From: Bacteroidia bacterium
GTDB taxonomy: Bacteria > Bacteroidota > Bacteroidia > SpSt-205
NCBI GenBank assembly: GCA_026413325.1
Contig: JANZYW010000017.1
Span: 1-33,400 of the forward strand
Direction of reading: 5' to 3'
Length of the DNA stretch: 33,400 nucleotides
A program made the translations under genes and the position numbers. Positions 11,119 to 31,491 of this stretch are shown in pieces. Position 1 is the stretch's first letter. Each line of letters opens with the position of its first letter. Below the pieces are notes generated by a model that did no database searches, had not been told where the DNA came from, and saw nothing but the letters and a program-made list of their open reading frames with translations.

Positions 11119-12450
11119 TTAGGTATGTGCAGTAGTGAGGAAAGACTGGACGGCTTCCTCAGCGGCTGCCATGGCCCCCTCGATATACCCCATCCAGGTA
11201 GAAGAGCGCTCAGTTCCGACCCAGTAGAGGGGGGGAAGGTGGGTACGCAGGACTTGCCCGAAATAGCGCCATCCCCCTGGTCCGAAATAGCCAGTATAAC
11301 AGCCACCGATCGAAGGTTCTTCTGCCCAGGTTTTCTGAAAGAGCCATTTGGGCTTAGCCCCAAAGAGAGCTTCCATTTCTTTTTCATAGTAGGCTGTTCG
11401 CTCATTTGATGAGACGTGTAACAAACTTCGCGCCAATTTCCCCACTCCAAATCCCGTAATCTGTCCGTATTCTCCCGCTGAAGGGGAAGTATCGAAAGTG
11501 AGGCGCAAAGCTCCATGTAGCCTAAGAATGTGGCCGCTGAGACCTTTCTCTCGCCAGAAAGGAGTGTCATATATCGCTACTATTTTTGTAACACTCCCCA
11601 TGGGCATGTGCTGGGAGAGCTGCTGATAGAGAGGTGGGAGGGGGGGGGTCCATTGGATCGTACCTGTCTGAGCGGGAGGTATAGCTACGAACACAGCCCG
11701 AGCTGAGAGTTGATATCCCCCTTCACAGATGAGTTTGACTCGAGTAGGTTCTATCTCTACTCGGTGTACTCTTTCCCCTAAGCGATAAGGGATGTCCTGG
11801 GCGAGACTGTGCACGAATGTGATAGCACCCTGAGAAAACTTGAGCTCCTGAGCTCCTCCTTCTGTTTCGATGAGGGCTTCCAGACTTCCTGCACTTCGCA
11901 AATAAAATAGGGTGTGCCAGAGAGAGACCTCCTCCGGTTCACATCCCAACACGGTAGATAAGCCTACTTCGAATGTTTCACGGGCTTTTCGGGTGTAGAA
12001 GGTTCGGCGAATCCATGCGGCTAAGCTGACTTCATCCCACTCTGCAGTCGAGATGTGCCACGGGTAGGCTGGGTCCACCCGAGAGGCCATTTTTCTAAGT
12101 CGCATGAGTCCTATTCCCAAATCCAGGAGGGCAAGCCAGGAAAGACGAGGGATAGTGCCTTTGTATTTTTTTCTTTGCTGAGGTGTGAGCAGTAAGTGGG
12201 CACCTGCGGTATGGGTGCGGTGCAGGGGGATATGGTGACGTTGGTTCCAGCGAAGGGCGCGAGTATGTTGAGGACCTATCCACTGGCCTCCCAAGTCTAC
12301 AGGGTGCCCTTCTGGGGTATAGATGGTATGGAGCCTACCTCCCAGGCGCTGTTGACCTTCTATTACTTCTACGGAAACTCCTGCTTGTTTGAGGAGATGG
12401 GCGGCATAGAGGCCGCTCACTCCTCCTCCTATAATGGCTACATCGACCAC
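11119..12450 (-). CDS. FAD-dependent amine oxidase (flavin monoamine oxidase family)
   Basis: A 443-residue flavoprotein. The N-terminal Rossmann FAD motif is VAIIGGGVSGLYAAHLLKQAG, followed by EVIEGQQRLGGRLHTI and VDLGGQWIG, and the C-terminal FAD-contact region STWMGYIEGAMAAAEEAV is intact. This is the monoamine oxidase/putrescine oxidase superfamily; the substrate cannot be told from sequence. There is no signal peptide or C-terminal anchor, so it is probably cytosolic. The start is GTG at 12450, and a one-mismatch -7 box (TATTTTCG, 12455-12462) ends 4 bases before it, suggesting a leaderless transcript. It is divergent from the aminopeptidase gene. Confidence 0.9.
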   Translation of the reverse strand: MVDVAIIGGGVSGLYAAHLLKQAGVSVEVIEGQQRLGGRLHTIYTPEGHPVDLGGQWIGPQHTRALRWNQRHHIPLHRTHTAGAHLLLTPQQRKKYKGTIPRLSWLALLDLGIGLMRLRKMASRVDPAYPWHISTAEWDEVSLAAWIRRTFYTRKARETFEVGLSTVLGCEPEEVSLWHTLFYLRSAGSLEALIETEGGAQELKFSQGAITFVHSLAQDIPYRLGERVHRVEIEPTRVKLICEGGYQLSARAVFVAIPPAQTGTIQWTPPLPPLYQQLSQHMPMGSVTKIVAIYDTPFWREKGLSGHILRLHGALRLTFDTSPSAGEYGQITGFGVGKLARSLLHVSSNERTAYYEKEMEALFGAKPKWLFQKTWAEEPSIGGCYTGYFGPGGWRYFGQVLRTHLPPLYWVGTERSSTWMGYIEGAMAAAEEAVQSFLTTAHT

Positions 12451-12454
12451 CGGA

Positions 12455-12462
12455 CGAAAATA
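12455..12462 (-). promoter_or_regulatory. -7 box (TATTTTCG) for the amine oxidase gene
   Basis: One mismatch to TAnnTTTG; it ends 4 bases before the GTG start, the same spacing as in front of gcvT, nuoG and murQ. No -33 box was identified. Confidence 0.45.
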
Positions 12463-12506
12463 AGAACGAAAGAGGGCTCTTTTCTCCTCTTCAGGACGAA
12501 CAGGGA

Positions 12507-12531
12507 TCTCTCTAAAAACCTTCTAGAGAGA
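12507..12531. repeat. Perfect inverted repeat in a divergent intergenic region
   Basis: TCTCTCTA and TAGAGAGA arms (8 bp, perfect) flank a 9-base centre. The repeat lies between the divergent amine oxidase and aminopeptidase genes, outside both predicted transcripts. It could be an operator for a dimeric regulator, but no regulator gene is nearby. Confidence 0.5.
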
Positions 12532-12621
12532 AGTCAGGGGAGCATATTTCGAGTAAAGAGGTCTTTTTCGTTTCTTTAGGGAGCGAAGGGAAGGCACTTT
12601 TCTCGGAGGGGGTTGGACTGC

Positions 12622-12629
12622 TAACTTTG
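12622..12629 (+). promoter_or_regulatory. -7 box (TAACTTTG) for the M17 aminopeptidase gene
   Basis: An exact TAnnTTTG match ending 6 bases before the ATG at 12636. This argues against the upstream in-frame TTG at 12627, which overlaps the box, and predicts a leaderless or nearly leaderless mRNA. Confidence 0.6.
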
Positions 12630-12635
12630 CCCGCC

Positions 12636-14096
12636 ATGAAAGTCTCTCTCAGTTCCTCTCTGGTAGCGGAACGTCCCGTCCTTTGGATCGTCTCCCCTCG
12701 TTCGGATAGGGCTTGGACGGCGGTCCTGGCGCAGTGGGGGGTCTCTCCAGAAAGGTTTCCCCTTTCAGATAAGCTTGCTTTTTTTGTAGATGGACGGTAT
12801 AACTGGCTTCAAGTTCACTTGCCAGAAGATTCCCTGGAGCATTTGCGGAGAGGTATTTTTTATGCCCTCCGAAAGGCAGAGGAGGTGGGATGGAAATCCG
12901 TTCAAATAGCCTGGGTACATGAGGTTGGACAGGGTGAGGTGGAGGATTCTTATCAGGTGCTCGGAGAGATGTCTCTCATGGCGTTGTATCGTTTTACCAA
13001 GTATGCAGTTGACCCTGTTCCTTCGGTCGAGGAAATCACGCTCTACGTCCCAGATAGAGAGGCTGAGTTAGCTGCTCGACGGGGGCTTATTATCGGTGAA
13101 TCGGTCAATCTGGTTCGGGACTGGGTCAATGAACCCCCCAATATCCTTACGGCTGAAGAGCTGGCTCGGCGGATTGAAGAGGTGGGGCAGCAGGTGGGCT
13201 TTTCAGTAGAGGTTTGGGATAAAGCTCGGATACAGGCAGAAGGCATGGGAGGTATCCTTGCTGTAAATCGAGGAAGCCTCAATCCTCCTACGTTTACGGT
13301 CGCAGAGTACAGGCCCGACTCACCAGTGAATGACCGTCCGATAGTTCTCGTGGGGAAAGGCTTGGTATTTGACACGGGGGGATTAAGTCTCAAACCTACG
13401 CCTGATAGCATGGACTACATGAAATGCGATATGGCTGGGGGGGCGGCTGTGATTGGTGCCTTGCGTGCAATAGCCCTTTTGAAGTTACCTTACCATGTGA
13501 TAGCTCTGGTTCCTGCTACTGATAATCGACCCGGCGAAAATGCTTATACACCAAATGATATCATCCATCTCTACGATGGTACTCCTGTAGAGATCCGAAA
13601 TACCGATGCAGAAGGAAGGCTTATCTTGGCAGATGCTCTGGTGTATGCTCGCAGGTATAATCCCGCCCTGGTGATAGACTTTGCCACTCTAACTGGAGCG
13701 GCAGCGATGGCTGTAGGTCCTTATGCTTCCGTGGTGTTTTCAAATGCAAGTGCTGAAATCAAGGAGGCCTTTCTGGAGGCTGCTGGATATACGTATGAGC
13801 GTTTGGTGGAGTTTCCTTTGTGGGAGGAATATGGTTTTCTCATACGGAGTGATATCGCTGCGATCAAGAACTCTGCGGGGAGGGAAGCAGGGGCTATCAC
13901 AGCAGCAAAGTTTCTGGAGTATTTCGTGCGGTATCCATGGATCCATGTCGATATAGCGGGGACGGCCTATTATAGCAAGCCTATACCACCTGAAAGAGGT
14001 TTCCCTCGTCACTATCAGGTCAAGTATGCTTCGGGTGTCGGTGTTCGGCTGACAGTAGCATTTCTCATGCGACATGGAAAACGCCTCTTCACCTGA
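12636..14096 (+). CDS. Leucyl aminopeptidase (M17 family)
   Basis: A 486-residue cytosolic dinuclear-metal aminopeptidase. The N-terminal macrodomain-like half is variable. The catalytic half has VGKGLVFDTGGLSLKP (metal/substrate residues K241, D246), MKCDMAGGAAV, and the M17 signature NTDAEGRL at 322-329 with D324 and E326. Length fits the family (about 480-500). ATG 12636 was chosen over the upstream TTG because a promoter box ends 6 bases before it. The 3' end overlaps pdxA by 23 bases, so the two are probably co-transcribed with the third gene at 15123. Confidence 0.94.
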   Translation: MKVSLSSSLVAERPVLWIVSPRSDRAWTAVLAQWGVSPERFPLSDKLAFFVDGRYNWLQVHLPEDSLEHLRRGIFYALRKAEEVGWKSVQIAWVHEVGQGEVEDSYQVLGEMSLMALYRFTKYAVDPVPSVEEITLYVPDREAELAARRGLIIGESVNLVRDWVNEPPNILTAEELARRIEEVGQQVGFSVEVWDKARIQAEGMGGILAVNRGSLNPPTFTVAEYRPDSPVNDRPIVLVGKGLVFDTGGLSLKPTPDSMDYMKCDMAGGAAVIGALRAIALLKLPYHVIALVPATDNRPGENAYTPNDIIHLYDGTPVEIRNTDAEGRLILADALVYARRYNPALVIDFATLTGAAAMAVGPYASVVFSNASAEIKEAFLEAAGYTYERLVEFPLWEEYGFLIRSDIAAIKNSAGREAGAITAAKFLEYFVRYPWIHVDIAGTAYYSKPIPPERGFPRHYQVKYASGVGVRLTVAFLMRHGKRLFT

Positions 14097-15126
14097 GATA
14101 CCTCGGGTAGGCTTCTCGATGGGGGAGCCGGGAGGAGTGGGTCCGCAGCTGCTATTGACCTTCTTAGAGCGCGAAGGCTGGCAAGAAGCATACATCCCGG
14201 TCATATTTGGCCATAGAAAGGTTATCGAGCGTTGGAGAAGCTATTTGGGTTTGCGTAGCTTGCGATATCATGGGATTCGGCATCCAGCTGAAGTACGTCC
14301 TTCGCATATCAACCTGGTAGAGTGTGGGGAAATAGGGGATTTCTCGCTGGGTCGTTCTTCGATGGAGGGAGGGGCTTTTGCTCGGGAGGCCTTTGTACGA
14401 GCGGTCCAAGCCGCTCATGCGGGGGAGGTCGATCTTCTGGTGACTTTGCCAGTGGATAAGGTCACTTTTTATGATGCAGAAAAGTTTCCCTACAGGGGAC
14501 ATACAGAGTACTTGCGAGAGAGGTATGCGGGTTTTTTCCCTCTGATGGTCATGGTATCGGATATACTTCGAGTAGCTATTTTGACCGAGCACATTCCTCT
14601 TGCAGAAGTAGCTTCTTCTCTTTCGGGTGAGAAGCTTTATCAGAGTATACAGGTGCTCTATGCTGCTTTGCAGAGAGACTTTGCTGTGCCCTTACCGCGT
14701 ATAGCAGTTCTGGGGTTGAACCCCCATGCAGGGGATGGAGGACTCCTGGGTAAGGAAGAGCAGGAAATCTTGCTCCCTGTTCTTCAGCGTCTTCAAGAGG
14801 AGGGTATGTCGGTGGGAGGACCTTTTTCTCCGGATGGGTTCTTCTTTTCGGGTCAATATAGGGCCGTGGACGCAGTTTTAGCGCTTTATCACGATCAAGG
14901 TCTTATTCCTTTCAAGTTGATGGCAGGCTGGGATGGTTTTCAGTATACGGCGGGTCTTCCTTTCATCCGTACGGCACCTGATCACGGGGTAGCCTATGAT
15001 AAAGTGGGTACAGAGAAAGTTGAGCTGGGAAGCCTCTCTTCAGCGGTTTGGGAGGGTCTTTCTATTCTTCGGCGACGCCGAGCGTATGACCAAGAAAGGA
15101 GGCTTTCTTCTAAGGAGGTCCTGTGA
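14074..15126 (+). CDS. pdxA: 4-hydroxythreonine-4-phosphate dehydrogenase
   Basis: Oxidises 4-phosphohydroxy-L-threonine in the DXP-dependent pyridoxal phosphate pathway. It has 350 residues. GFSMGEPGGVGPQLLL at the N-terminus matches the family GDPxGIGPE start, with a glutamate in place of the usual aspartate. The three metal-binding histidines are present: H143 in RGHTEYL, H218 in GLNPHAGDGGLLG and H273 in YHDQGLIPFK; FIRTAPDHG follows. It overlaps the aminopeptidase end by 23 bases and its stop overlaps the next start as GTGA. The pdxJ partner is not in the window. Confidence 0.95.
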   Translation: MENASSPEIPRVGFSMGEPGGVGPQLLLTFLEREGWQEAYIPVIFGHRKVIERWRSYLGLRSLRYHGIRHPAEVRPSHINLVECGEIGDFSLGRSSMEGGAFAREAFVRAVQAAHAGEVDLLVTLPVDKVTFYDAEKFPYRGHTEYLRERYAGFFPLMVMVSDILRVAILTEHIPLAEVASSLSGEKLYQSIQVLYAALQRDFAVPLPRIAVLGLNPHAGDGGLLGKEEQEILLPVLQRLQEEGMSVGGPFSPDGFFFSGQYRAVDAVLALYHDQGLIPFKLMAGWDGFQYTAGLPFIRTAPDHGVAYDKVGTEKVELGSLSSAVWEGLSILRRRRAYDQERRLSSKEVL

Positions 15127-16016
15127 CGCCTGCTGTGGTTTGGCTCCTGCCAGCTCACGAAACTACCCATTATGAGCTGATGGGAGAGGTATATGCTCAT
15201 GCTCTGCGCTCACTCTCGGAAAAAATCCCTATATGGGGGGTGAGCTGGAATTTCAGCTGGCCTACTTCTCGACGGGGGTATGCCCTTTCTATCTGGAATG
15301 GGTACGGGCGTCAAATCGGTTTCTGGGGAAAATGGCGCTTGCGGCAGATGCGCAGAGAGGTGGAAAAAATGTGGAGAGAAGAGGGATTTGTCCCTCATAT
15401 CATCCAGCTCTCTTCGGCTCCTTGGGCTCCTTCTTTGGCAGAGATTTGGAAGCGGCGATTTTCTGCTTCTATTAGCCCCCCTCTTCCTTCTCTTTCTCGC
15501 TCCGACGAGGAGCTGCCCTTTCGATTGCCTACAACTGGGTTGCCAGAAGACGAGAGACCTATCCCCAAAACAGTGTGCCTTTTCGTCTCTCAGACAGCAG
15601 CTGTCGAAGCTGCATATATAGCCGAGATTCTGGCTTTAGAGAAATACGTCGTCTACATCGTGGGTACTCCCATAGAAAGTACACCCCTCCGAAATTCTGT
15701 CCATCGCTTTCCATATCATATTCGGCTGCGATTGGGCCTCTCATGGATAGAAACGGAGCTGTATGCCCTTCGCGCATCCATACTCATTTTGGTTGGGAAT
15801 GCATTGGGAGAAGAACTTCTCATTGAGTTAGGACGTCCTTGGGTCTGTAGAAAGGATCATCCCCTGGCATCACATGCATATGCGGGATATGAAGACCCTA
15901 CACAGCTACCTATCCTCTTACAGTCTATCTCCTCCTCCCCTCTAAATAGGCTCTCCCCCGAAGAGTTTACGCAAAAGCTGGTGGCCTACTATACCCGAAT
16001 GGCGAAATCCAACTGA
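15123..16016 (+). CDS. Protein of unknown function, possibly GT-B glycosyltransferase-like
   Basis: A 297-residue protein I do not recognise. Its GTG start overlaps the pdxA stop (GTGA), so it is translationally coupled to pdxA. An N-terminal half with FVPHIIQLSSAPWAPSLAEIW and a C-terminal half with hydrophobic strands (PKTVCLFVSQ, YVVYIVGTPI, SILILVGNALGEELLIELGRP) recall the two Rossmann-like halves of short GT-B glycosyltransferases, but no donor-site motif is clear and the middle is proline/serine-rich. There is no signal peptide or membrane segment. Its 3' end overlaps the convergent nuoG by 28 bp. The GT-B idea is weak inference. Confidence 0.75.
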   Translation: MTPAVVWLLPAHETTHYELMGEVYAHALRSLSEKIPIWGVSWNFSWPTSRRGYALSIWNGYGRQIGFWGKWRLRQMRREVEKMWREEGFVPHIIQLSSAPWAPSLAEIWKRRFSASISPPLPSLSRSDEELPFRLPTTGLPEDERPIPKTVCLFVSQTAAVEAAYIAEILALEKYVVYIVGTPIESTPLRNSVHRFPYHIRLRLGLSWIETELYALRASILILVGNALGEELLIELGRPWVCRKDHPLASHAYAGYEDPTQLPILLQSISSSPLNRLSPEEFTQKLVAYYTRMAKSN

Positions 16017-17716
16017 TTGTGTCTAAATATCTCTTTTCGTAGGAGCTTGGGATAGGTAGCTTTTTCTAAGAAAGGGAGGGAAGCTTTTAGTCTTTCCCAG
16101 AGAGGAAGGTGTTCTGTTGGAAGGCCTAAGGGATGTTTCAGAAGCTCTGCCAGACGGATAAGGACGCTATAGCTGGGGAGGCAGTCGGGGATGTGTGCAG
16201 GGCTTCGCCAGCGGTCTACGGCTTGGCCTGCCGCATCTAATCTGCTTTTAGGTAGGTAGAACCAATCTTGTGGGGTCATTTGTAGCCACTGGCGTGCAGG
16301 CTGGACTGTCTGGGCGATACCCTGGAAGTTGACAAACGTAGCAAAGCTCTCTAAATGAGTGGCTGCTGGTATAGTCCAGGTGAGCTTCTCATGTCCCGGA
16401 ATGAGCTGATGCAGGTGAGCGATAATGGACAGCGAGGAAGGAATGCGCGGAAGAAGAGTTTGTAAGGTTTCATCGTCTTCTATCCAGTATAGGATGGAGT
16501 AAGCCTCAGAAGAGAGTAGTTCTAAAAGGCTCTCGGGCAAGATAGGTTGATAGCCTAAGGCCTCGGCTCCTATGCTATTCGGGGTCCGGTCATCCCTTCG
16601 GAGGACAGTGTCTCCCCATCCAGCTTGAATGTGAGGTATATAGTATAGTGGGGTGCCAGGAAAAATCTTTTCAATGAAAGTTCGGAGTACGTATAAGGTT
16701 TCTATACTTGCTTGGGCAGAGCCCATGAAGAGAATTTTTCCGTTTGCCTGCGAAAGGAGCTGGGCGATTTGTTCTAATCCTTGCTCCCAGCTTACGGGTA
16801 CGTTTCCCTTTGCTCTGATACCAGAAGCTCGGTTTTCATTGTATTTAGCATAATCTAATCTGCCTTCATCGCAGAGCCAGTATTGATTAACAGAGAGATT
16901 TTTCCGAGGAGTGAGTCGCATCACAAGGTTATCTCGTATCCATACGTAGGCATTACACCCCCGAGCGCATCCTGTGCATAGGGTGGGAGTGTAATTCATT
17001 TCCCAAGGACGGGCTCTGAAGCGGTGGTCAGCACTGGTCAGTGCGCCTACAGGACAGATATCCACTGTATTTAGAGAATATGGATCATCAAAAGGCATCC
17101 CATCGGCAGTGGCAGGATAGTTTTGATTGCCTCGTTGGATAATAGTAAGCTGATGGGTACCGGAGATTTCTTCGGTGAATCGAACGCATCGGGTGCAGTT
17201 TATACATCTTTCTGCATCAAGTACCACCCGAGGTCCCAGTTGTAACCGTTTCGGTTTGTGAACCTTTTCTTCCTCAAATCGAGAGCCTTCTGGTCCATAC
17301 TTATAGGTCCAGATTTGCAGGGGGCATTCTCCTGCTTGGTCGCAGATGGGGCAGTCGAGGGGATGATTAATCAGAATGAACTCAAGGACAGCCTCCTGGG
17401 TTTTGCGTACCGTTTCAGATGAGCGATGCGTGCGAACATGAAGGTCGGGTACGAGGTCTGTGGTGCAAGCAGGGGTTGGCTTGGGGCCCCATCCAATCTT
17501 CAAAGAGCCGTCTTCTTCTCGGAGGTATTCCCCCGTTTGTCTGTCTTTCAGAGGCAGGCCGGTTTCGACAAGGCACATCCGACAATTTGCAGGTATGCTG
17601 AGGGCGGGGTGATAACAAAAGAAAGGTATTTCAATACCGTGGTCCAGGCAGTATTGGAGCAACTTTCCGGGCTGCTCATATAGGTGGGGCTGCCCGTCTA
17701 TATAAATGGTGGGCAT
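15989..17716 (-). CDS. nuoG: NADH-quinone oxidoreductase subunit G (iron-sulfur subunit of complex I)
   Basis: A 575-residue electron-transfer subunit of the complex I peripheral arm. The full ligand set is visible: 2Fe-2S C34/C45/C48/C84; the His-Cys3 cluster H118/C122/C125/C131; a 4Fe-4S site C171/C174/C177/C221; and the extra N7-type site C247/C250/C254/C282, which many NuoG proteins have lost. The C-terminal molybdopterin-oxidoreductase-like part is shorter than in E. coli (about 900 residues in total). A perfect -7 box ends 4 bases before the ATG. No other nuo gene is adjacent on either side, so the complex I genes are dispersed. The 3' end overlaps the convergent unknown gene. Confidence 0.9.
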   Translation of the reverse strand: MPTIYIDGQPHLYEQPGKLLQYCLDHGIEIPFFCYHPALSIPANCRMCLVETGLPLKDRQTGEYLREEDGSLKIGWGPKPTPACTTDLVPDLHVRTHRSSETVRKTQEAVLEFILINHPLDCPICDQAGECPLQIWTYKYGPEGSRFEEEKVHKPKRLQLGPRVVLDAERCINCTRCVRFTEEISGTHQLTIIQRGNQNYPATADGMPFDDPYSLNTVDICPVGALTSADHRFRARPWEMNYTPTLCTGCARGCNAYVWIRDNLVMRLTPRKNLSVNQYWLCDEGRLDYAKYNENRASGIRAKGNVPVSWEQGLEQIAQLLSQANGKILFMGSAQASIETLYVLRTFIEKIFPGTPLYYIPHIQAGWGDTVLRRDDRTPNSIGAEALGYQPILPESLLELLSSEAYSILYWIEDDETLQTLLPRIPSSLSIIAHLHQLIPGHEKLTWTIPAATHLESFATFVNFQGIAQTVQPARQWLQMTPQDWFYLPKSRLDAAGQAVDRWRSPAHIPDCLPSYSVLIRLAELLKHPLGLPTEHLPLWERLKASLPFLEKATYPKLLRKEIFRHNQLDFAIRV

Positions 17717-18000
17717 GGTACAAACATATAACGATTAGAGCGCCTGACGTATTTCAGCGGTGTGAGCTCCATATCGGCTCTGAGGGGAAAATAGCTTTCG
17801 ATAGGAGCCTGTATTTGTATTTCTAATAGGAATGCGTTATCTCCTAAGACAAGTGGCCGACTTCCGATGAAGACAGGAGAGGTATGTGTGGTCGATGTTC
17901 CTGTATCCTTTATCTGTAAACCGATGTAAAAATTATTTTTCTTTTTTCTGTAGGGTTTCTGGTACGGAAGGGCGCAGGAGATATCGATATAGGCTATAAT
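17698..18000 (-). pseudogene. Start-less open frame between the YihY gene and nuoG
   Basis: On the minus strand, 100 sense codons run without a stop from the codon after TAA (18003-18001) to TAG (17700-17698). The first 20 or so overlap the end of the YihY gene in another frame. The residues look protein-like (NNFYIGLQIKDTG, then VFIGSRPLVLGDNAFLLEIQI, then YFPLRADMELTPLKYV), but there is no ATG, GTG or TTG until a methionine about 75 codons in. It enters nuoG by 19 bases. It may be the 3' remnant of a decayed gene, or a former extension of the YihY protein cut off by a +1 shift near the A-rich tract at the YihY stop. Confidence 0.35.
17721..17728 (-). promoter_or_regulatory. -7 box (TATGTTTG) for nuoG
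   Basis: An exact TAnnTTTG match on the minus strand ending 4 bases before the nuoG ATG, so transcription would begin at or next to the start codon. No TTG -33 box was found at 17-23 bases. It gives the lone nuoG its own promoter separate from the upstream gene run. Confidence 0.55.
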
Positions 18001-18862: not shown

Positions 18863-19277
18863 AAAATGCCTCTGGAGGACGACAGGGACGCCAGGTTTCT
18901 CGAGAAATAAAGATTAAGAGAACCTCAGCTTCTGCTAACAGTTCCTTTTCCCGATACAGATGATGCTGGAAAAAAAGCTTGGTGGAAGGGGGCTGTCGTA
19001 GCCAGGTATGAATCCGCAGTTCCTCATCATACCGAGCGGGACGGTGATAGGTGATGGAAAACTGGCGTACAGGCAGGAGAATCCCCATTTTCTCCTCCAT
19101 TTCTGCGTAGGTAAGTCCCAGTCGACGGATCCATTCTGTACGAGCTATTTCACAGTAGACCGCATAATGGGCATAATAGACTACTCCCATCTGGTCCGTC
19201 TCAGCATATCGGACTCGTATTCGAGTTTCATGGGGGACCTCCCAGAGGTCTTTATTTATTTTTTCTGGGCTAACCAT
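18834..19277 (-). CDS. Acyl-CoA thioesterase, hotdog fold (YbgC/4HBT family)
   Basis: A 147-residue single-hotdog thioesterase that cleaves acyl-CoA or acyl-ACP thioesters. The signature RVRYAETDQMGVVYYAHYAVYCEIARTEWIR (from about residue 21) contains the catalytic aspartate D28 and the usual aromatic pair. YbgC is often linked to the Tol-Pal envelope system, but no tol genes are present here. The start overlaps the mltG end by 22 bases and the end overlaps the YihY gene by 29 bases, so this is a tightly coupled operon member. Confidence 0.9.
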   Translation of the reverse strand: MVSPEKINKDLWEVPHETRIRVRYAETDQMGVVYYAHYAVYCEIARTEWIRRLGLTYAEMEEKMGILLPVRQFSITYHRPARYDEELRIHTWLRQPPSTKLFFQHHLYREKELLAEAEVLLIFISRETWRPCRPPEAFYAALAQNCS

Positions 19278-20894: not shown

Positions 20895-20896
20895 GG

Positions 20897-22253: not shown

Positions 22254-23102
22254 CTATTGGGGGCTCTCTTTTTCGTTTTGCCCTTCTTCCTGGGAGGGGA
22301 GATGTAAGTGATCTAAAGCTTTCCGTAAACTACCCATTTCTCGTAGGAGTGTTTCTGCCTCTTGAAGAGAGAGACCTGTGGCTTCCATGAGATAGTGAGT
22401 CGCTCGCTGCCACAGTTTTCGGTTTAGGAGTTGTAGATCCACCATGCGGCTGTTCCGCACGTGCCCTAATCGGGTGAAGGCAGCTGTAGTAATCATATTG
22501 AGTATGAGCTTGGTGGCTGTACCAGCCTTTAGGCGGGTACTGCCTGTCAGCACCTCAGGACCTGTTATGACGACGATAGGGTGCTCTACCAGGTTTTCCA
22601 GTGGGGTGTTGGGGTTGGCAGTAAAGGCGCCGGTTAGGGCTCCTACTTTCCGTGCATAGAGAGCGGCTCCGAGAGCAAAAGGGGTTCGTCCACTTGCACT
22701 GATGGCAAAGAGGGTGTCCTTTTCGCAGAGCTGGAGGCGTTGTAGTTCGGTCTGAGCCGCTGCCTCGTCATCTTCAGCAGCTTCTATCGGGCCCCTCAGG
22801 GCTGCCTCCCCACCAGCGATGATGCCTATCACTCGGTCGGAAGGCACCCCGAAAGTAGGCGGGCATTCAGCTGCATCTAAGACGCCGATCCTACCGCTGG
22901 TTCCGCTCCCCGCATAAATCAGCCTTCCTCCTTGCTTTATTCTTTCCACCAGGGCTTCGATAAAACGGGAGAGCTGCGGTATGACTTCCCGTACCTTGAG
23001 GGGAACTTTCTGATCTTCATCATTCATGGCAAAGAGCACAGCTTCGATTTCCCATGTCTCGATGTTTGGATAGGGTGAGTCTTTCTCGGTCAGCCAACCC
23101 AC
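22254..23102 (-). CDS. murQ: N-acetylmuramic acid 6-phosphate etherase
   Basis: Splits MurNAc-6-P into GlcNAc-6-P and lactate in cell-wall recycling. The SIS domain has AGSGTSGRIGVLDAAECPPTFGV, whose ECPPTF glutamate is catalytic, and GPIEAAEDDEAA with the second active-site glutamate; ISASGRTPFALGA and the C-terminal VDLQLLNRKLWQRA follow. The frame extends upstream to an ATG at 23240, but those 46 codons have no counterpart in the family. I choose GTG at 23102 (then GWLTEKDSPYPN, the normal MurQ opening), 282 residues, because a -7-like box (TATCTTCG, 23107-23114) ends 4 bases before it. No murP-type PTS gene or regulator is adjacent. Confidence 0.92.
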   Translation of the reverse strand: MGWLTEKDSPYPNIETWEIEAVLFAMNDEDQKVPLKVREVIPQLSRFIEALVERIKQGGRLIYAGSGTSGRIGVLDAAECPPTFGVPSDRVIGIIAGGEAALRGPIEAAEDDEAAAQTELQRLQLCEKDTLFAISASGRTPFALGAALYARKVGALTGAFTANPNTPLENLVEHPIVVITGPEVLTGSTRLKAGTATKLILNMITTAAFTRLGHVRNSRMVDLQLLNRKLWQRATHYLMEATGLSLQEAETLLREMGSLRKALDHLHLPSQEEGQNEKESPQ

Positions 23103-23106
23103 TGGA

Positions 23107-23114
23107 CGAAGATA
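23107..23114 (-). promoter_or_regulatory. -7-like box (TATCTTCG) deciding the murQ start
   Basis: One mismatch to TAnnTTTG on the minus strand; it ends 4 bases before the GTG at 23102, the same spacing as for gcvT, nuoG and the amine oxidase gene. It lies inside the longer alternative frame, so that frame's ATG (23240) would not be on this transcript. Confidence 0.5.
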
Positions 23115-24422: not shown

Positions 24423-24532
24423 GGAAGGCAAGTAAAATGCACAGGAAATAGAGGCATTCAGCTAATCCCCTCCCATAAAGGAAAGGAGAGAGGAACGGCG
24501 AAACGATCTTCTGATTCGTAAAGGGGAGCAAG

Positions 24533-25261
24533 CTACGCTTGTACTGCAAGAAGGTTGACTAACGCCCCTGATTGATAGTAAGGGAGGACGGGGTGTAGAT
24601 CCCTCCGCAAGCTGTATTTTACATCTCGCTGCATTCCCAGTTCTACCAACCTGTCAAAGTGAGCAGAATGTTCCAGGTAGTACTTTTTTCGATGGTCGGC
24701 CATTTGGTACAGACTCATAGCGATGAGGGTAGCATCATCGTTTACTCGGAAGTGCCCTTCTAACTCAGTGGCAACCGCTCCAGCAAATAGGGTGTCCTCT
24801 AAGTTCACATGATCCTTCCAGCCTGAGCAGACCAGTAGGACGGGTTCTTCTTGGATTCGGAGCCAGTTCACGAGGGTAGACATGTTGACGAAGGCACCTG
24901 CGACGATCTTTTTTGCGTGGCGTACAGCCCATAGCGCACGTGTTCCATTCGTGGTGGTGAAAGCTAATTTTTTGCCCTGCAAGTCGGCCTCTAAAAAGTC
25001 GTAGGGGGAGTTGCCAAAATCGAAGCCTGTTACTTTTTCCGCCCCCCTTTCTGCGGCTGTGAGGTAACCTTCTCGCTTGAGGCTTCGACAAGCCCGAAGT
25101 GAAGGGACAGGTCGGATTTCCGTGACTCCTCTATCCAGTGCCACGCAGAAACTGGTCGTGGCCCGTAGGATGTCGATGACTACCACGATGTAATCCCCTA
25201 CTTTGAAAGTAGGTATCAGTGCTGTAGACAAGCATACTCGAACCAACGGACGAAATCTCAT
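24533..25261 (-). CDS. comB: ComB family 2-phosphosulfolactate phosphatase
   Basis: A 242-residue Mg-dependent phosphatase family that in methanogens converts 2-phosphosulfolactate to sulfolactate for coenzyme M. Family motifs are clear: VVVIDILRATTSFCVALDRG, then AERGAEKVTGFDFGNSPYDF, then FTTTNGTRALWAV, then VLLVCSGWKDHVNLEDTLFAGA. No ComA, ComC or other coenzyme M gene is present, so the role in this bacterium is unknown. A link to sulfonate or sulfonolipid metabolism is only a guess. The start overlaps the gcvT stop as ATGA (25258-25261), so it is translationally coupled to gcvT. Confidence 0.92.
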   Translation of the reverse strand: MRFRPLVRVCLSTALIPTFKVGDYIVVVIDILRATTSFCVALDRGVTEIRPVPSLRACRSLKREGYLTAAERGAEKVTGFDFGNSPYDFLEADLQGKKLAFTTTNGTRALWAVRHAKKIVAGAFVNMSTLVNWLRIQEEPVLLVCSGWKDHVNLEDTLFAGAVATELEGHFRVNDDATLIAMSLYQMADHRKKYYLEHSAHFDRLVELGMQRDVKYSLRRDLHPVLPYYQSGALVNLLAVQA

Positions 25262-26382
25262 AGGCGAGCTTTGAGGCGTTGGGTGAGGGATGTCTCTGAT
25301 ACGAAGGGGGGACGGGTAATGCGAAGAGGGGTCAGCTGTCCTCGGATAGAGATATACACCGTGTCTCCGAGTTGGTACGTAGGGGGGAGGTAGCCTAATG
25401 CGATGCCCCGTTGCAGTGTAGGTCCGAGGGAGCCAGAAGTGATCCGTCCGATTTCTTCTCCCTTTTCATTCAGAAGAGGCATCGCATTTCGGGGGAGCAC
25501 ACGAGCGGATTCACTTAGTAGGCCTACCAGTTTCCGGCGGAGTCCTTCCTGTTTCTGCGCTTGGAGAGCGGAGCGCCCGATAAAGTCTCCCTTTTCCAGT
25601 TTCACAGCCCAGCCGGCCCCCGCTTCTAAGGGGGTTGTACTTTCATCTATATCGGTACCACAGAGGAGATAGCCCATTTCCAGGCGCAGGGTATTTCTTG
25701 CAGCTAAACCAGCTGGGGATGCCTTCAAGGAGCCTCTCTCAGCCTGGAGGATAGCCCAAAGTTGGGGGCCATATTCTTTGCGAACGAAAAGCTCATAAGT
25801 CCATTCTCCTGTGTAACCCGTCGTTGCGACAAGGACTTCCATACCTGCCACAGAAAGTTTTTGACAGCTGTAGTAAGGCATAGCCTCGATAGCTGTCCTG
25901 TCCGTGTGCATACCCAGTAGGTCTGTACTGGCAGGTCCCGAAAGTGCGATAAGAACTGTTTCCTCAGAGATGTCCTGGAGTGATACGCCCGTGGGTGGAA
26001 GGTTTTCTCTTAGCCACTCGCGATCCCGAGTTGTATTTGCTGCATTGACCACTAGGAGAAATAGTTCTGACTCCAGTTGGTAGAGGATTAGATCGTCGAT
26101 GATACCTCCTTGGGGGTTGAGTAGGAACGTATACTGGGCTCGTCCTGGGGTGAGTTTCGCCAGATCATTGGTGAGCACAGACTGCAGAAACTCCGCAGCT
26201 TTGGGCCCCCTCACCAGAAATTCTCCCATGTGGGAGAGGTCAAAAAGGCCGGCTTGTTGTCGTACGGCATGATGCTCTGCTAACTCGCTTTTGTACCGCA
26301 GAGGCATCTCCCACCCCCCGAAAGCCGTCAAATGGGCACCTAGCTCTCGATGTTTTTCTAAAAGAGGAGTTACTTTTAGCAC
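25258..26382 (-). CDS. gcvT: Glycine cleavage system T protein (aminomethyltransferase)
   Basis: Transfers the methylene group from aminomethyl-lipoyl GcvH to tetrahydrofolate. It has 374 residues. The N-terminal fold includes AHLTAFGGWEMPLRY, then HHAVRQQAGLFDLSHMGEF, and GGIIDDLILY with the folate-site aspartate D96/D97; the C-terminal domain has GLAARNTLRLEMGY and GAGWAVKLEKGDFIG. The frame begins at GTG 26400, but a perfect -7 box (TACCTTTG, 26387-26394) lies inside those first codons, so I choose the GTG at 26382 (MLKVTPLLEKH), which also matches usual family N-termini. gcvH and gcvP are elsewhere. Confidence 0.95.
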   Translation of the reverse strand: MLKVTPLLEKHRELGAHLTAFGGWEMPLRYKSELAEHHAVRQQAGLFDLSHMGEFLVRGPKAAEFLQSVLTNDLAKLTPGRAQYTFLLNPQGGIIDDLILYQLESELFLLVVNAANTTRDREWLRENLPPTGVSLQDISEETVLIALSGPASTDLLGMHTDRTAIEAMPYYSCQKLSVAGMEVLVATTGYTGEWTYELFVRKEYGPQLWAILQAERGSLKASPAGLAARNTLRLEMGYLLCGTDIDESTTPLEAGAGWAVKLEKGDFIGRSALQAQKQEGLRRKLVGLLSESARVLPRNAMPLLNEKGEEIGRITSGSLGPTLQRGIALGYLPPTYQLGDTVYISIRGQLTPLRITRPPFVSETSLTQRLKARL

Positions 26383-26386
26383 TACG

Positions 26387-26394
26387 CAAAGGTA
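26387..26394 (-). promoter_or_regulatory. -7 box (TACCTTTG) for gcvT
   Basis: An exact TAnnTTTG match on the minus strand, ending 4 bases before the GTG at 26382. It predicts a leaderless gcvT-comB mRNA. It lies only 8 bp from the divergent -7 box at 26403-26410. Confidence 0.6.
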
Positions 26395-26402
26395 CGACAC
26401 CG

Positions 26403-26410
26403 TATATTTG
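26403..26410 (+). promoter_or_regulatory. -7 box (TATATTTG) for the WecA-like gene
   Basis: An exact TAnnTTTG match on the plus strand, 22 bases before the ATG at 26433. No TTG box about 20 bases upstream. Its polymerase footprint would overlap that of the gcvT promoter. Confidence 0.5.
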
Positions 26411-26432
26411 TTCGTGCTCGAAACAGTTTGCT

Positions 26433-27452
26433 ATGGCATTTGTGCTTGTGGCCCTTGGCTCGCTCCTCTCTGTATGGGTATGGAACGAAATTTTTCTGCG
26501 GTTTGCTCGACGGTTAGGGGCTCTCAGCCAGGGCATTCCTAATCAGAGACGATGGGATAGTCGACGCAAACCTATCATAGGAGGTATCGGTTTTTTCGTA
26601 GTGGCGCTGGGCTTAGCTGCGTGGCGGCCGGCGGATCTCCCTGTTTCTCATGCGCTTCTGGCAGGGGCAGTGGTGGCTTTTCTTACCGGATTAGCGGATG
26701 ATGCATTCGTCTCTGTACCGCATATCAAGCTGCTGGGCCAGTTAGCTGCAGCTACGGTAGCCCTCGCATTAGAAGCACCCCGCCTCGAACTGGGCAACCC
26801 TATTGCCTCCTTTTCTTTGACGCTTTTTTGGTATGTGGCCGTAATGAATGCCTTCAACATGATGGACAACATGGATGGCATTTCAGGCAGTCTGGCCTTT
26901 TCTATGCTGATAGGGACTCCGTGGCTACTTCCGCAAAGTCCGCATGTTTTCCTCTACGTTGGCCTGGCAGGAGCCATACTCGCTTTTTTGTATCGAAATT
27001 GGCATCCTTCTCACTTGTATATGGGGGACAATGGAAGCCAGTTCTTGGGTTTCGTCCTCGCCTACTGGGGTACAGAAGTATGGGAGGCCCGTTTTGTTCT
27101 TTCTCCCTGGGCCAATCTGTTTGGGTTGATCAGTCTTTTTGCGCTTTTGGCTGGGGATACCTTTTGGGTAATTCTCTCCCGTCTGGTGCGGGGTGTTAGC
27201 CCTTTCAATGGAGGTACGGACCACCTGACGCACCGTCTGGCTCAGCGAGGGTGGCCTGTCCGATGGATATCGCTGAGCATTTTGGGCGGGCAAGCTACCC
27301 TCACTCTCCTCTCTATTTTCTCCGGAGGCCATGAGCAGTATGAGTGGCTCCAGATCCTTGTCATCGCAGCTGTTGGAGGAGGTATTGGTTTCGTTCACCT
27401 GCGGCATATGCGGTCTGCTCTTCGTTTGGCTCGAATGAGACAGACAGTGTGA
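26433..27452 (+). CDS. Polyprenyl-phosphate HexNAc-1-phosphate transferase (MraY/WecA family)
   Basis: A 339-residue integral membrane enzyme that loads a sugar-1-phosphate onto undecaprenyl phosphate, the first step of a surface glycan. There are roughly ten membrane helices. Conserved cytosolic motifs are GLADD (86-90), the catalytic NAFNMMDNMDG (139-149), HLYMGDNGSQFLGF (194-207) and NGGTDHLTHRL near 257-267. The last motif fits the WecA/TagO branch rather than MraY. The stop overlaps the GTG start of the following glycosyltransferase, which probably adds a later sugar to the same lipid carrier. Confidence 0.92.
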   Translation: MAFVLVALGSLLSVWVWNEIFLRFARRLGALSQGIPNQRRWDSRRKPIIGGIGFFVVALGLAAWRPADLPVSHALLAGAVVAFLTGLADDAFVSVPHIKLLGQLAAATVALALEAPRLELGNPIASFSLTLFWYVAVMNAFNMMDNMDGISGSLAFSMLIGTPWLLPQSPHVFLYVGLAGAILAFLYRNWHPSHLYMGDNGSQFLGFVLAYWGTEVWEARFVLSPWANLFGLISLFALLAGDTFWVILSRLVRGVSPFNGGTDHLTHRLAQRGWPVRWISLSILGGQATLTLLSIFSGGHEQYEWLQILVIAAVGGGIGFVHLRHMRSALRLARMRQTV

Positions 27453-28615
27453 GGATTCTCTACTGGCAATATTTTTTTACTCCCCCCGGTGGGTGGGGAA
27501 ATCGAAGAAGCTATGATTTGGCTCGTTTTTGGCGTCAGGCAGGGCACCAGGTATGGATAGTCGCGGGAGGTACGTACTTTCCCCCTTCCCTTGTGCGGAG
27601 ACTGGGAAAGCGTCGCTGTTTCCGGACGAAAGAAGGGATAGTCATCGTGTATTATCCTGCTGTATATCATCAAGGACAGGCTTTCTGGCGGAGGGTGAGG
27701 AGTCTGGTAGTTTTTTCCTTGTGGAGCTTGTACATTCTCTGGCGTTTGCGAAAAGTGGTCTATTTTCTGATTGCTGCGGTCCCTCCCCCTTCCTTGCCCT
27801 TTTTAGCTGCATTCTACAAACGGTTCTTTCGTCACCCGTTTGCGGTGGAGCTGTATGATGCATGGCCGCTTGTGCCTGAGGCGGTGGGGGTGGTTCCGGC
27901 ATTTCTGCGGGGAGCACTACGTAAATTGAGCTACTGGAGCTATAACCAGGCAGACGTGATTCTGGCGCTGTCACCGGGCATTTCTCAAGCCCTCTGCCTG
28001 CCCCGGGCCTATTTGAGCTATAATGGGACTCGTCCCGAGCTATTTTACCGGCGGAAGCCTCCTGCTTTCTTACCCTTTCGAATCATCTATGCGGGTACCC
28101 TTGGGTGGGTAAACTATCTGGATTTCCTGATAGAAGTAGCAAATAGGCTTCGGGAGTATTCTGCGATAGAATTTTGGGTAATAGGAGAGGGAGGGGAGAA
28201 AGCCAAGGTCGTCGAAAAGGCAGCTCATTTGCCAGCCCTTCATTTTTTTCCCGCTGTCCCAGTAGAAGAGGTTCCCTATTGGCTTTCTGAAGCGCATATC
28301 GGGGTCTCTACCGTGCGTCCAGTAGACGTGTTGTCTACTAATAGTGCAAATAAATTTTATGATTATCTTGCCAACGGACTGGTTGTGGGTATCAACTATG
28401 GGGGATGGCAAGCGGAGCTACTGAGGCGGGAGAAATGTGGTTTTAGCTCTTCGGATGTGGATTCTTTTTGTAGGAAGATTTTACATTACTACTGGCACAG
28501 GAGAGAGTGGGAGTATGCCTCTGCTCGTGCCCGGTTGGTAGCAGAGAGACTGTTCGATAGGCGTATTCTTGCGAGGCAGATCATAGAGCTGCTTTCTCCA
28601 TTCTCGTGTACTTGA
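27449..28615 (+). CDS. Glycosyltransferase, GT4-like (GT-B fold)
   Basis: A 388-residue GT-B glycosyltransferase. It opens VRILYWQYFFTPPGGWGNRRSYDLARFWRQAGH, the usual N-terminal pattern with a glycine-rich acceptor loop. DVILALSPGISQAL and the donor-domain start FRIIYAGTLGWVNYLDFLIE follow, then the sugar-nucleotide site ANKFYDYLANGLVVGINYGG. I place the start at GTG 27449, overlapping the upstream stop as GTGA. The frame is open 35 codons further up to ATG 27344, but that part overlaps the WecA-like gene and is not protein-like. No membrane helices are certain. Sugar specificity is unknown; context suggests surface polysaccharide. Confidence 0.92.
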   Translation: MRILYWQYFFTPPGGWGNRRSYDLARFWRQAGHQVWIVAGGTYFPPSLVRRLGKRRCFRTKEGIVIVYYPAVYHQGQAFWRRVRSLVVFSLWSLYILWRLRKVVYFLIAAVPPPSLPFLAAFYKRFFRHPFAVELYDAWPLVPEAVGVVPAFLRGALRKLSYWSYNQADVILALSPGISQALCLPRAYLSYNGTRPELFYRRKPPAFLPFRIIYAGTLGWVNYLDFLIEVANRLREYSAIEFWVIGEGGEKAKVVEKAAHLPALHFFPAVPVEEVPYWLSEAHIGVSTVRPVDVLSTNSANKFYDYLANGLVVGINYGGWQAELLRREKCGFSSSDVDSFCRKILHYYWHRREWEYASARARLVAERLFDRRILARQIIELLSPFSCT

Positions 28616-28625
28616 GAGAGGGCGT

Positions 28626-28633
28626 TACCTTCG
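28626..28633 (+). promoter_or_regulatory. -7-like box (TACCTTCG) for the PurF-like gene
   Basis: One mismatch to TAnnTTTG; it ends 6 bases before the ATG at 28640, matching the spacing seen for the aminopeptidase and the small membrane protein genes. Confidence 0.45.
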
Positions 28634-28639
28634 CGGCGT

Positions 28640-30490
28640 ATGTGTGGTGTGGTGTGGGTGCGACTTTTGCGTCCACTGGATGACTATCCCTCCCCCGTGT
28701 GGGGCCTTCGGCACGTTTCTTTACTTCTCCAGAAACAGCGCAATAGAGGTCAGGATGGTGCAGGGCTGCTGACCTATAAGGCCCGAGTTGCTGCTGGTAG
28801 CCCTTATTTTTACAGAAAGCGCTTGATTGCGCCTCGTCCTCCCTGGAAATTCCTGCTTGAAGAGATATGGCAAGAATGGGAGCTCCACCAGCGGGAAGGA
28901 AAACATCCGTACGCTTTTCCTTTCGTAGGAGAGGCTTACTTAGGCCACCTGCGGTATGGCACTTTCGGGGGGTACACGCTCGAAGAAACCCATCCGGTCA
29001 TTCGACAGAGTAGCTGGCCTTCTCGCTCTTTGGTGATTGCAGGGAACTTCAATCTCACGAATGCGCAGGAGCTTTTTCAGCGGCTTGTAGCGATGGGGCA
29101 GCACCCCCTTTTCCGAAGTGATACCTATACGATACTCGAGCGGATGGGTCACTTTCTGGACGAGTATGTCGAGAAGCTTTATCAAGAAGCCAAGGAAAAC
29201 GGACTGGATAAAGCAGAAGCTTCGTCCTATATCACGGAGCACTTCCCTATGGTAGAATGGCTGGCCCGCAGTGCGCGACGGTGGGATGGGGGGTATGTGA
29301 TTGCAGGTTTACTCGGAAATGGCTGGGGGTTCGTCATGCGAGACCCTCTCGGTATCCGACCTGCTTATTATCTCGTAACCGAAGAGGTGATCGCGATGGC
29401 TTCTGAAGCCGCTGCGCTGCACAATGTGTTTGGAGTCTCTCCGACGTATGTCAAAGAAATTCCGCCTGGACATGCTCTCACTGTGTCTCCTTCGGGCTCT
29501 TGGCAGGTGCTCCCTTTCTCTGAGCCTGCCCAGAAACCTACCCGATGTGCTTTCGAACGAATCTACTTCTCGAGGGGTAACTCTCCTCATATCTATGGAG
29601 AACGCAAAGCTCTTGGAGCTTTGCTTGCCGCCGAAATAGCTCGATTTCTTGACTATCGTTTCGATAACGTAATATTCACTTACATTCCCAATACCTCACA
29701 AGCAGCCTTCTGGGGACTCTTGAAGGAACTGGAGAATATTCTCATCCTTCGCCAGTACAAACGCATCCAACGAGAACGGCTCAGTGAAGAGCAGCTCCGA
29801 GAAGTGCTTCAGCAGCGCATCCGGGCAGAATACCTGGTGTGGAAGGATACCCAGAGCCGTACTTTCATTTCTGCTCCTGAGCTTCGCTCAGAAATGTCTC
29901 GGTATGTCTATGATGTGATTTACCACGTGGTTCGCCCAGGAGAAGATACATTGGTATGCTTAGATGACTCTATCGTACGGGGTACTACCTTACGCCAGAC
30001 GCTTCTTCAGACGTTAGCTCGTCTCCAACCTGCTCAACTTATCGTTGCCTCTTCGGCACCTCAGATACGGTACCCCGATTTTTATGGGATTGATATGGCT
30101 ACCTTAGGGGATCTAATCGCTTTCCAAGCTGCAGTTCAGCTCCTGCGAGAATACCGACTAGAGGAAGTACTTTCTCATACTTATGAGCTGTGCAAGCGGG
30201 CAGAGGGGACAGAGGAGTTTGCCTCCGTAAACTATGTCAAAGCCATTTATGCTCCTTTTACAGAAGCACAAATCGCAGCAAAAATAGCTGAGTTAGTCAG
30301 GCCTCCTGAGCTTTCGTGTCCGCTAACGCTCATTTTCCAACCCGTGGAAAACCTTCCTAAAGCCCTTCCCAACCATCGGGGAGATTGGTATTTCACTGGT
30401 ACATACCCCACTCCGGGGGGATACATGCAGGTCAATCGGGCTTTTATGCAATACTACGAAGGGCAGACACACAGGAGGGCTTATGAATGA
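28640..30490 (+). CDS. Amidophosphoribosyltransferase paralogue (Bacteroidota long PurF-like type)
   Basis: A 616-residue fusion of a class II glutamine amidotransferase and a phosphoribosyltransferase. The N-terminal nucleophile is Cys2 (MCGVVW). RNRGQDGAG and HLRYGTFGGY are glutaminase motifs. The usual NGNLTN is replaced by AGNFNLTN, as I recall for the longer Bacteroidota paralogue. The PRPP-binding loop DDSIVRGTT is intact at 442-450. It is longer than housekeeping PurF (about 470-510) through inserts around the glutaminase core and an extended C-terminus, so it may be a second copy with a separate role rather than the purine-pathway enzyme. A -7-like box ends 6 bases before the ATG. Confidence 0.9.
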   Translation: MCGVVWVRLLRPLDDYPSPVWGLRHVSLLLQKQRNRGQDGAGLLTYKARVAAGSPYFYRKRLIAPRPPWKFLLEEIWQEWELHQREGKHPYAFPFVGEAYLGHLRYGTFGGYTLEETHPVIRQSSWPSRSLVIAGNFNLTNAQELFQRLVAMGQHPLFRSDTYTILERMGHFLDEYVEKLYQEAKENGLDKAEASSYITEHFPMVEWLARSARRWDGGYVIAGLLGNGWGFVMRDPLGIRPAYYLVTEEVIAMASEAAALHNVFGVSPTYVKEIPPGHALTVSPSGSWQVLPFSEPAQKPTRCAFERIYFSRGNSPHIYGERKALGALLAAEIARFLDYRFDNVIFTYIPNTSQAAFWGLLKELENILILRQYKRIQRERLSEEQLREVLQQRIRAEYLVWKDTQSRTFISAPELRSEMSRYVYDVIYHVVRPGEDTLVCLDDSIVRGTTLRQTLLQTLARLQPAQLIVASSAPQIRYPDFYGIDMATLGDLIAFQAAVQLLREYRLEEVLSHTYELCKRAEGTEEFASVNYVKAIYAPFTEAQIAAKIAELVRPPELSCPLTLIFQPVENLPKALPNHRGDWYFTGTYPTPGGYMQVNRAFMQYYEGQTHRRAYE

Positions 30491-30784
30491 TTCTCTCTTT
30501 CCTTTCAGCCTACATCCGACCCCTCCTGGTAGCTAACGGGGTCTCGAAGGGCAGAAATATAGTGCAGCTATTCAGGAGGAGAAGCTTCTTTGCCCTCAGA
30601 ACTGGTTACCCTATCCATCGGGGAGCTCTCAGCATAGCTTCCGTCCCTCTTCGATTCTTTAGTCTTATGAGGCTTTTTGTTTTGTATCACCCGTCACCGC
30701 TTTCTACGGCGGTATAGAAAGATGCATAAAGTTACCTAAGAAGAATAGCCATACATAAGGGTAGCTTACTTGAACTAATCCTTC
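30491..30784. other. Intergenic stretch without a supported gene; holds an inverted repeat and an interrupted short frame
   Basis: About 300 bp. ATG 30483 overlaps the PurF-like stop and opens 17 codons to TAA (30534-30536). The same frame then runs 41 further codons with protein-like content to TAG (30660-30662), possibly a decayed small gene. A different frame from 30487 stays open for 76 codons but reads as an arginine/hydrophobic mix with no support. CTTTCTA (30700-30706) and TAGAAAG (30715-30721) form a 7-bp inverted repeat with an 8-base loop, without a T-tract after it. Confidence 0.4.
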
Positions 30785-30792
30785 TACCTTTG
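30785..30792 (+). promoter_or_regulatory. -7 box (TACCTTTG) for the small membrane protein gene
   Basis: An exact TAnnTTTG match ending 6 bases before the ATG at 30799, so the mRNA is probably leaderless. A TTG lies only 12 bases upstream, too close for a standard -33 box. It excludes the in-frame TTG at 30790, which is part of the box. Confidence 0.6.
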
Positions 30793-30798
30793 CAAGTT

Positions 30799-31491
30799 AT
30801 GCAAACTGTTAGTGCATCGCGTATCTGGGGACTTGCCTGGGAACGCTTCAAAGAAACATGGGGGCCGCTTGTGGGCCTCTTCGTCGTTAGCATTTTGGTG
30901 TCATTTATCCCTTTCGTGGGTTCTCTATTTAGCTTACTTATTTTCTCGCCGGCTCTTTTTGTTGCGGGGCTCTGGGTAGCCAGGGAGGGAAAACTAAGCT
31001 TCGGAGATCCTTTCAAGGATGTAGGAAAGTTAGTTCTCATGGGCTTGTACCTCGTCGTTCTCTTCCTTGTCCCTGGAATCATCTGGGCGATTGCCTATAC
31101 TTCCTATGGGATGTCTGTCTTCATGGCCCCTGATACTTTCAATCCCTATGGAGAAGGGGGTTCTTCTCTTGGTGCAGGCTTCTTTGCTCTCATTCTCCTC
31201 GCCAGTCTTTGCCTTTTCGTGATTCAGCTTCTTTTCTGGCCTGGTATTCTACTCCTATACGAGGGAAAAGCGAGTTTTGGGGGAGCCTTTGGAGCAGGCC
31301 TCAATCTTACTCTCAAAAATATCGGGATAGCAGTCGGATTTTTTCTTCTTTTCCTTCTTGTAAACCTGCTTGGCGCTATCGCTTGTGGCGTCGGCTTGCT
31401 CATAACCGTGCCTGTTTCGTACGTAGCATATGGGATCTTTTATCTGGTTATGATGGGAGAATGGTCTGAAAACAATTCCACCTTGGCGTAG
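30799..31491 (+). CDS. Integral membrane protein of unknown function
   Basis: A 230-residue protein with about six hydrophobic segments: LVGLFVVSILVSFIPFVGSL, SPALFVAGLWVA, LVLMGLYLVVLFLVPGIIWA, FFALILLASLCLFVIQLLF, IGIAVGFFLLFLLVNLLGAI and a final segment ending VSYVAYGIFYLV. The layout of a soluble-looking N-terminus (SRIWGLAWERFKETWG) and glycine-rich loops before paired helices recalls DUF975/DUF4013-type membrane proteins, but I cannot assign a family firmly. It is a single-gene unit with its own promoter. The ATG at 30799 is chosen from the promoter position. Confidence 0.82.
   Translation: MQTVSASRIWGLAWERFKETWGPLVGLFVVSILVSFIPFVGSLFSLLIFSPALFVAGLWVAREGKLSFGDPFKDVGKLVLMGLYLVVLFLVPGIIWAIAYTSYGMSVFMAPDTFNPYGEGGSSLGAGFFALILLASLCLFVIQLLFWPGILLLYEGKASFGGAFGAGLNLTLKNIGIAVGFFLLFLLVNLLGAIACGVGLLITVPVSYVAYGIFYLVMMGEWSENNSTLA

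Follow-up and report, generated by a model that had tools for sequence, protein, structure and literature searches.

Promoters of the sigma-ABfr type at start codons and predicted leaderless or near-leaderless expression in a family of Bacteroidota

Promoters of the sigma-ABfr type located at the start codon very probably produce leaderless or near-leaderless mRNAs in the Bacteroidota family examined here; among genes that head transcription units, no other detectable layout is as common. The layout was first proposed for seven genes of the window, a stretch of 33,400 nucleotides from a Bacteroidia bacterium (GCA_026413325.1, contig JANZYW010000017.1). Inspection of the sequence located all seven boxes at the claimed spacing of 4 or 6 nt before the start codon, four of them exact matches to TAnnTTTG and three with a single mismatch, which in each case yields TAnnTTCG. 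GTG serves as the start codon in three of the seven genes (gcvT 26382, amine oxidase 12450, murQ 23102), one more than originally counted. The TPR gene had been described as not leaderless, yet an in-frame GTG at 11076 is found 5 nt from an exact box and adds an eighth leaderless candidate. The boxes and the genes that they precede are as follows, with positions given in the window.

26387..26394, minus strand: gcvT -7 box TACCTTTG, exact; TACCTTTG-CGTA-GTG, 4 nt before the GTG at 26382.
25258..26382, minus strand: coding sequence of gcvT, beginning at the GTG predicted to be leaderless; NCBIfam GcvT, 417 bits, with the profile alignment starting at residue 1.
17721..17728, minus strand: nuoG -7 box TATGTTTG, exact; TATGTTTG-TACC-ATG, 4 nt before the ATG at 17716.
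15989..17716, minus strand: nuoG-like gene; NCBIfam TIGR01973, 377 bits, under the curated cut-off.
12455..12462, minus strand: -7-like box of the FAD amine oxidase gene TATTTTCG, one mismatch at -6; TATTTTCG-TCCG-GTG, 4 nt before the GTG at 12450.
23107..23114, minus strand: murQ -7-like box TATCTTCG, one mismatch; TATCTTCG-TCCA-GTG, 4 nt before the GTG at 23102.
12622..12629, plus strand: leucyl aminopeptidase -7 box TAACTTTG, exact; TAACTTTG-CCCGCC-ATG, 6 nt before the ATG at 12636.
28626..28633, plus strand: -7-like box of the PurF-like amidotransferase gene TACCTTCG, one mismatch; TACCTTCG-CGGCGT-ATG, 6 nt before the ATG at 28640.
30785..30792, plus strand: -7 box of the membrane protein gene TACCTTTG, exact; TACCTTTG-CAAGTT-ATG, 6 nt before the ATG at 30799.
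11082..11089, minus strand: TPR gene -7 box TACCTTTG, 5 nt before the in-frame GTG at 11076; additional leaderless candidate.
11110-11117: second box of the TPR gene, TATATTTG.
26403..26410, plus strand: -7 box of the MraY/WecA-like gene TATATTTG, with the ATG at 26433 and a predicted leader of ~18 nt; back to back with the gcvT box.

Exact TAnnTTTG words numbered 29 on both strands of the window, a count reached in none of 100 shuffles, against an expectation of 14.65. Five ATG or GTG candidate starts, the fifth being the TPR GTG at 11076, carry an exact box at 3-8 nt, compared to a mean of 0.13 and a maximum of 2 in 1000 shuffles of the upstream regions. In order to obtain a distribution of spacings, stretches of the organism's own 2.19 Mb genome (414 kb) and of three other members of the genus were analyzed with gene starts from a longest-ORF caller built for this analysis, allowing any in-frame ATG or GTG in the first 120 nt; all statistics beyond whole-genome pattern counts derive from such sampled stretches. 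The genome-wide spacing histogram, fixed beforehand as the result on which the proposal could fall, showed a sharp peak at 4 nt, with 5 nt the next most frequent spacing and a tail extending to 8 nt. The counts of exact boxes at 3 to 8 nt before ATG or GTG in the 414 kb of the own genome were 1, 31, 15, 9, 8 and 5. The total of 69 compares with 1.6 in shuffled upstream regions, and the 31 at 4 nt with 0.3; in genome G302 there were 43 at 4 nt where 0.2 were expected. Across the whole own genome, TAnnTTTG-N4-ATG occurred 178 times versus 23 for the reversed pattern and 19 for a spacing of N20 before ATG. A composition or annotation artefact, in which AT-rich words fall close to starts by chance, gains some credit from the weakness of single hits where 14.65 exact words are expected per window, but the spacing statistics refute it: neither the 69 sites against 1.6, nor the 178 against 23, nor the conservation between orthologs described below is accommodated, and the probability left to it is practically negligible.

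The start calls are computational, and the true starts could in principle lie further downstream, the mRNAs being normally leadered and the nearby ATG or GTG coincidental. This is extremely improbable, as several of the starts are anchored in the protein sequence: that of the PurF-like gene by MCG, which supplies the N-terminal Cys nucleophile, that of the amine oxidase by the N-terminal dinucleotide-binding motif VAIIGGGVSGLYAA, and that of GcvT by the profile alignment from its first residue. Furthermore, the peak is limited to in-frame ATG and GTG; GTG starts peaked at the same spacing as ATG starts, while TTG and four non-start codons gave no spacing peak in the same box-to-codon test. The MurQ profile alignment begins at residue 8 of the GTG-start product. 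The C at -6 that sets the amine oxidase box apart from the consensus is found in 6% of weight-matrix sites.

Since a promoter is expected only at the first genes of transcription units and a translation signal at all genes, position within the operon separates the two. The exact box was present at 3-5 nt in 95 of 306 divergent genes (31%) and in 36 of 482 genes that directly adjoin a neighbour on the same strand (7.5%) in genomes G000 (the own genome), G300, G302 and G304, an odds ratio of 5.6 (P = 1e-17). The box is a promoter element and not a ribosome signal. The competing explanation, that it recruits ribosomes to an ordinary leadered mRNA in a Kozak-like manner or as a U-rich site for S1, is in line with the U-rich composition of the box, its proximity to the start codon and the AT-rich context upstream of starts in Bacteroidota, which initiate without Shine-Dalgarno sequences (PMC6847099, PMC9581028). 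It was rejected on the operon-position test and is very improbable, because operon-internal genes mostly lack the box and show an almost flat profile upstream, without strong context, because the consensus is that of the sigma-ABfr -7 box down to the depletion of G, and because two back-to-back boxes within 26-90 bp leave scant space for other promoters and leaders. The promoter of nuoG directly follows the stop codon of the upstream gene in several genomes, and promoters of this kind account for part of the boxes in the operon-internal class; the 7.5% may represent such promoters within operons or wrongly placed starts.

The logo of 109 sites at 4 nt reads TAYCTTTG, with a pyrimidine at -1 and an AT-rich patch from -19 to -16. 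G is depleted to 13% and 6% at -10 and -9, respectively, as in TAHHTTTG. No TTTG was apparent at -33, the information content being zero from -36 to -30 in the 109-site logo, which bears out the original remark that -33 boxes are mostly unclear for this class. The promoters of F. johnsoniae likewise avoid G in the box, carry an AT-rich patch near -18 and hardly show the -33 element, although most mRNAs of this species are leadered (PMC6847099); the -33 TTTG is therefore not required of every sigma-ABfr promoter. The primary sigma factor of approximately 290 residues is of the short Bacteroidota type, lacking region 1.1 and with regions 2.3-2.4 conserved, and its region 2 is nearly identical to that of another Bacteroidia genome, G049. 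The sigma-70 family model gave 5 matches each in G000 and G302, of which 4 were above the cut-off (one primary and a few ECF-type), and 37 matches in G049.

The box spans -12 to -5 in F. psychrophilum, that is, 4 nt before +1 (PMC9723704), and is separated from the start site by 4-5 nt in F. johnsoniae (PMC6847099). With this gap, +1 would fall on the start codon for boxes at 4-5 nt, and boxes at 6 nt would give a leader of about 1-2 nt. The transcription start is thus positioned by the spacing measured in Flavobacterium, and the agreement of the 4-5 nt peak with that spacing supports the proposal that the mRNAs would begin at the start codon. Two features typical of leaderless genes were found: a fixed distance of the box that places the +1 predicted from Flavobacterium at the start codon, and concentration of the signal at the first genes of transcription units. 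By weight matrix, sites at 3-8 nt exceeded background in ~46% of divergent genes and sites at 9-29 nt in ~8%; the ~46% was estimated as an excess in four sampled genomes and covers leaders of 0-4 nt. Since the sites at 6-8 nt would give leaders of 1-4 nt, "near-leaderless" is the safer wording for them. In the mechanism proposed, promoters of the primary sigma factor of sigma-ABfr type would carry the -7 box TAHHTTTG at a distance of 4-5 nt, and sometimes 3-8 nt, from the start codon, and RNA polymerase would begin transcription at the first base (A or G) of AUG or GUG or at most about 4 nt away. Translation would then involve neither a leader nor contact with a Shine-Dalgarno sequence; the ribosome would presumably recognize the start codon at the 5' end directly, as is established for the leaderless mRNAs of other organisms.

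Shine-Dalgarno 4-mers were scarce, preceding 6.4% of operon-internal starts. Neither an Rfam search nor the 515F-primer pattern matched a 16S rRNA in the genomes of the family; the 515F pattern was absent from all 13 genomes of the order (G000 and G297-G308), including one of 2.27 Mb in a single contig. Ribosomal protein bS21 had no match in the own genome, which may reflect a contig gap, and matches in 11 of the 11 other family genomes searched. The first base of codon 2 was C in 43% of genes with a box at 3-6 nt versus 24% of operon-internal genes (P = 5e-6), in which A prevails (G000, G300, G302 and G304). This bias toward C may reflect initial transcription or leaderless initiation.

The arrangement is conserved between orthologs. 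The gcvT box, TACCTTTG or TACTTTTG, is found 3-4 nt before ATG or GTG in all nine genus genomes with readable upstream sequence (eight besides the own), and the nuoG box, TATGTTTG and once TACATTTG, at 4 nt in 10 of the 10 genus genomes searched. The aminopeptidase box lies 5-7 nt before the ATG in 10 of 10 genus genomes. Presence of the box coincided between orthologs in 192 reciprocal best-hit pairs of sampled genes (P = 4e-12). The spacer letters vary among the orthologs of all three genes, and in gcvT they differ in nearly every one; constant length combined with variable letters is the signature of box-to-start geometry.

The count for N4 exceeded that for the reversed pattern in all 12 family genomes searched. 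The eleven besides the own genome, of which ten belong to the genus and one to a second genus, had 133-223 N4 sites versus 2-18 reversed controls. The own genome has the densest N4 signal among 297 Bacteroidota genomes, about 81 per Mb; most of these have an N4:N20 ratio near 1:1. The exact box at 3-5 nt preceded 111 of 401 unit-first genes (28%) in four family genomes versus 5 of 167 (3%) in three other Bacteroidota (P = 9e-14). G308, from another family of the same order, had no genome-wide excess (50 N4 sites versus 39 for the control) but nevertheless contains the gcvT site with a GTG start, TATCTTTG-N4-GTG. Outside the order, a weaker excess of N4 over N20 was observed in family f25 of another class (56:5 in G144 and 33:4 in G105; also G136) and in G115 (80:21), and sequence samples contained small peaks at 3-7 nt in G144 and at 4 nt in G115. 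This pattern in the sequences suggests moderate leaderless use in f25 and G115, elsewhere in the phylum, in which case the trait would be graded with the window's family at the extreme. G041, initially second best in the phylum with 128 N4 sites versus 33 controls, was discarded since a 100 kb sample contained none at 4 nt before ATG; its N4 sites probably lie in clusters, within repeats or a gene family. The nearest named genome is that of the Bacteroidia MAG SKYB116 (72% in RpoA), for which a literature search found no paper.

The promoters described here share with the sigma-ABfr promoters of Bacteroides and Flavobacterium (TTTG at -33, TAnnTTTG at -7) the same -7 consensus including TAHHTTTG, the hardly visible -33 element and the type of primary sigma factor. 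The promoters of those genera are mostly leadered, whereas in the window's family the distance of the box peaks at the start codon. Published shares of leaderless or short-leader mRNAs for Flavobacterium and Bacteroides are 3.7-13%: leaderless mRNAs make up 5.5% in F. psychrophilum (PMC9723704), leaders under 10 nt 3.7% in B. thetaiotaomicron, and 87% of the leaders in F. johnsoniae exceed 10 nt (PMC6847099). Leaderless genes amount to ~39% in Deinococcus-Thermus and ~19% in Actinobacteria, with a Pribnow-type box some 10 nt upstream of the start (PMC3160421). These groups are alike in the fixed short box-to-start distance and the high genome-wide share, and unlike in that the box here is a -7 element of the sigma-ABfr type, TAnnTTTG, located 4 nt from the start, and that the phylum does not use Shine-Dalgarno initiation. 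The same survey, from 2011, reported leaderless genes in one of 37 Bacteroidetes/Chlorobi genomes and thought additional high-percentage groups unlikely; it was blind to the TAnnTTTG layout because only Pribnow-like boxes were sought (PMC3160421). In start-prediction work, ribosome sites of an AT-rich, non-canonical kind are ascribed to the group (PMC9581028), and an analysis from 2017 suggested that leaderless mRNA and/or RPS1 underlie AT-rich biases in Bacteroidetes (PMC5397173). No earlier report of a leaderless-rich Bacteroidota lineage was found in a literature search whose scope excluded most subscription journals. Leaderless expression and the sigma-ABfr promoter are each known; what is new is their systematic combination at such a level.

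In model Bacteroidota the mRNAs carry leaders that lack Shine-Dalgarno sequences. About half of the transcription units in this little-known family apparently lack a leader, which indicates that the ribosomes of the phylum can be pushed to the opposite end of the range and makes the family a natural comparison set for start-codon recognition in the leadered models. Longest-ORF start calls run past the promoter box in gcvT, where the call at 26400 is upstream of the box, and in murQ, so that many N termini may be mis-annotated and GTG starts missed.

Boxes were found on both sides in 45 of 153 divergent pairs, mostly with start codons 26-90 bp apart, and the divergent promoters thus lie within one short symmetric region as in bidirectional promoters. 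An example is CAT-TTTG-CAAAAATG-GG-TACTTTTG-CTTG-GTG (26 bp). The 45 double-box pairs are near the 39 or so expected from the single rates, and the double layout is therefore a by-product of the leaderless layout with no separate adaptation. A general enrichment of exact divergent boxes at one fixed back-to-back distance was not found, the distances being spread over 26-90 bp. Bidirectional promoters of E. coli have a pseudo-symmetric sequence on which polymerase binding is mutually exclusive between directions (PMC12825309). The likeness is in a short pseudo-symmetric sequence expected to drive divergent transcription; unlike in E. coli, there are two separate back-to-back -7 boxes with both mRNAs predicted to be leaderless and 26-90 bp between the start codons. 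A bolder reading, for which the chances appear evenly balanced, is that leaderless expression is the default of a whole Bacteroidota family lacking Shine-Dalgarno sequences and that its divergent genes use minimal bidirectional leaderless promoters of 26-45 bp with mutually exclusive directions. Regions of 26-29 bp from start to start in G000, G300, G302 and G304 consist of little beyond two back-to-back -7 boxes and spacers of 3-6 nt. At 26380-26440 of the window, an opposite -7 box (CAAAnnTA) is located 8-12 bp behind the gcvT box in every readable ortholog of the order, a distance at which the MraY/WecA-like gene and gcvT would use one tiny promoter region.
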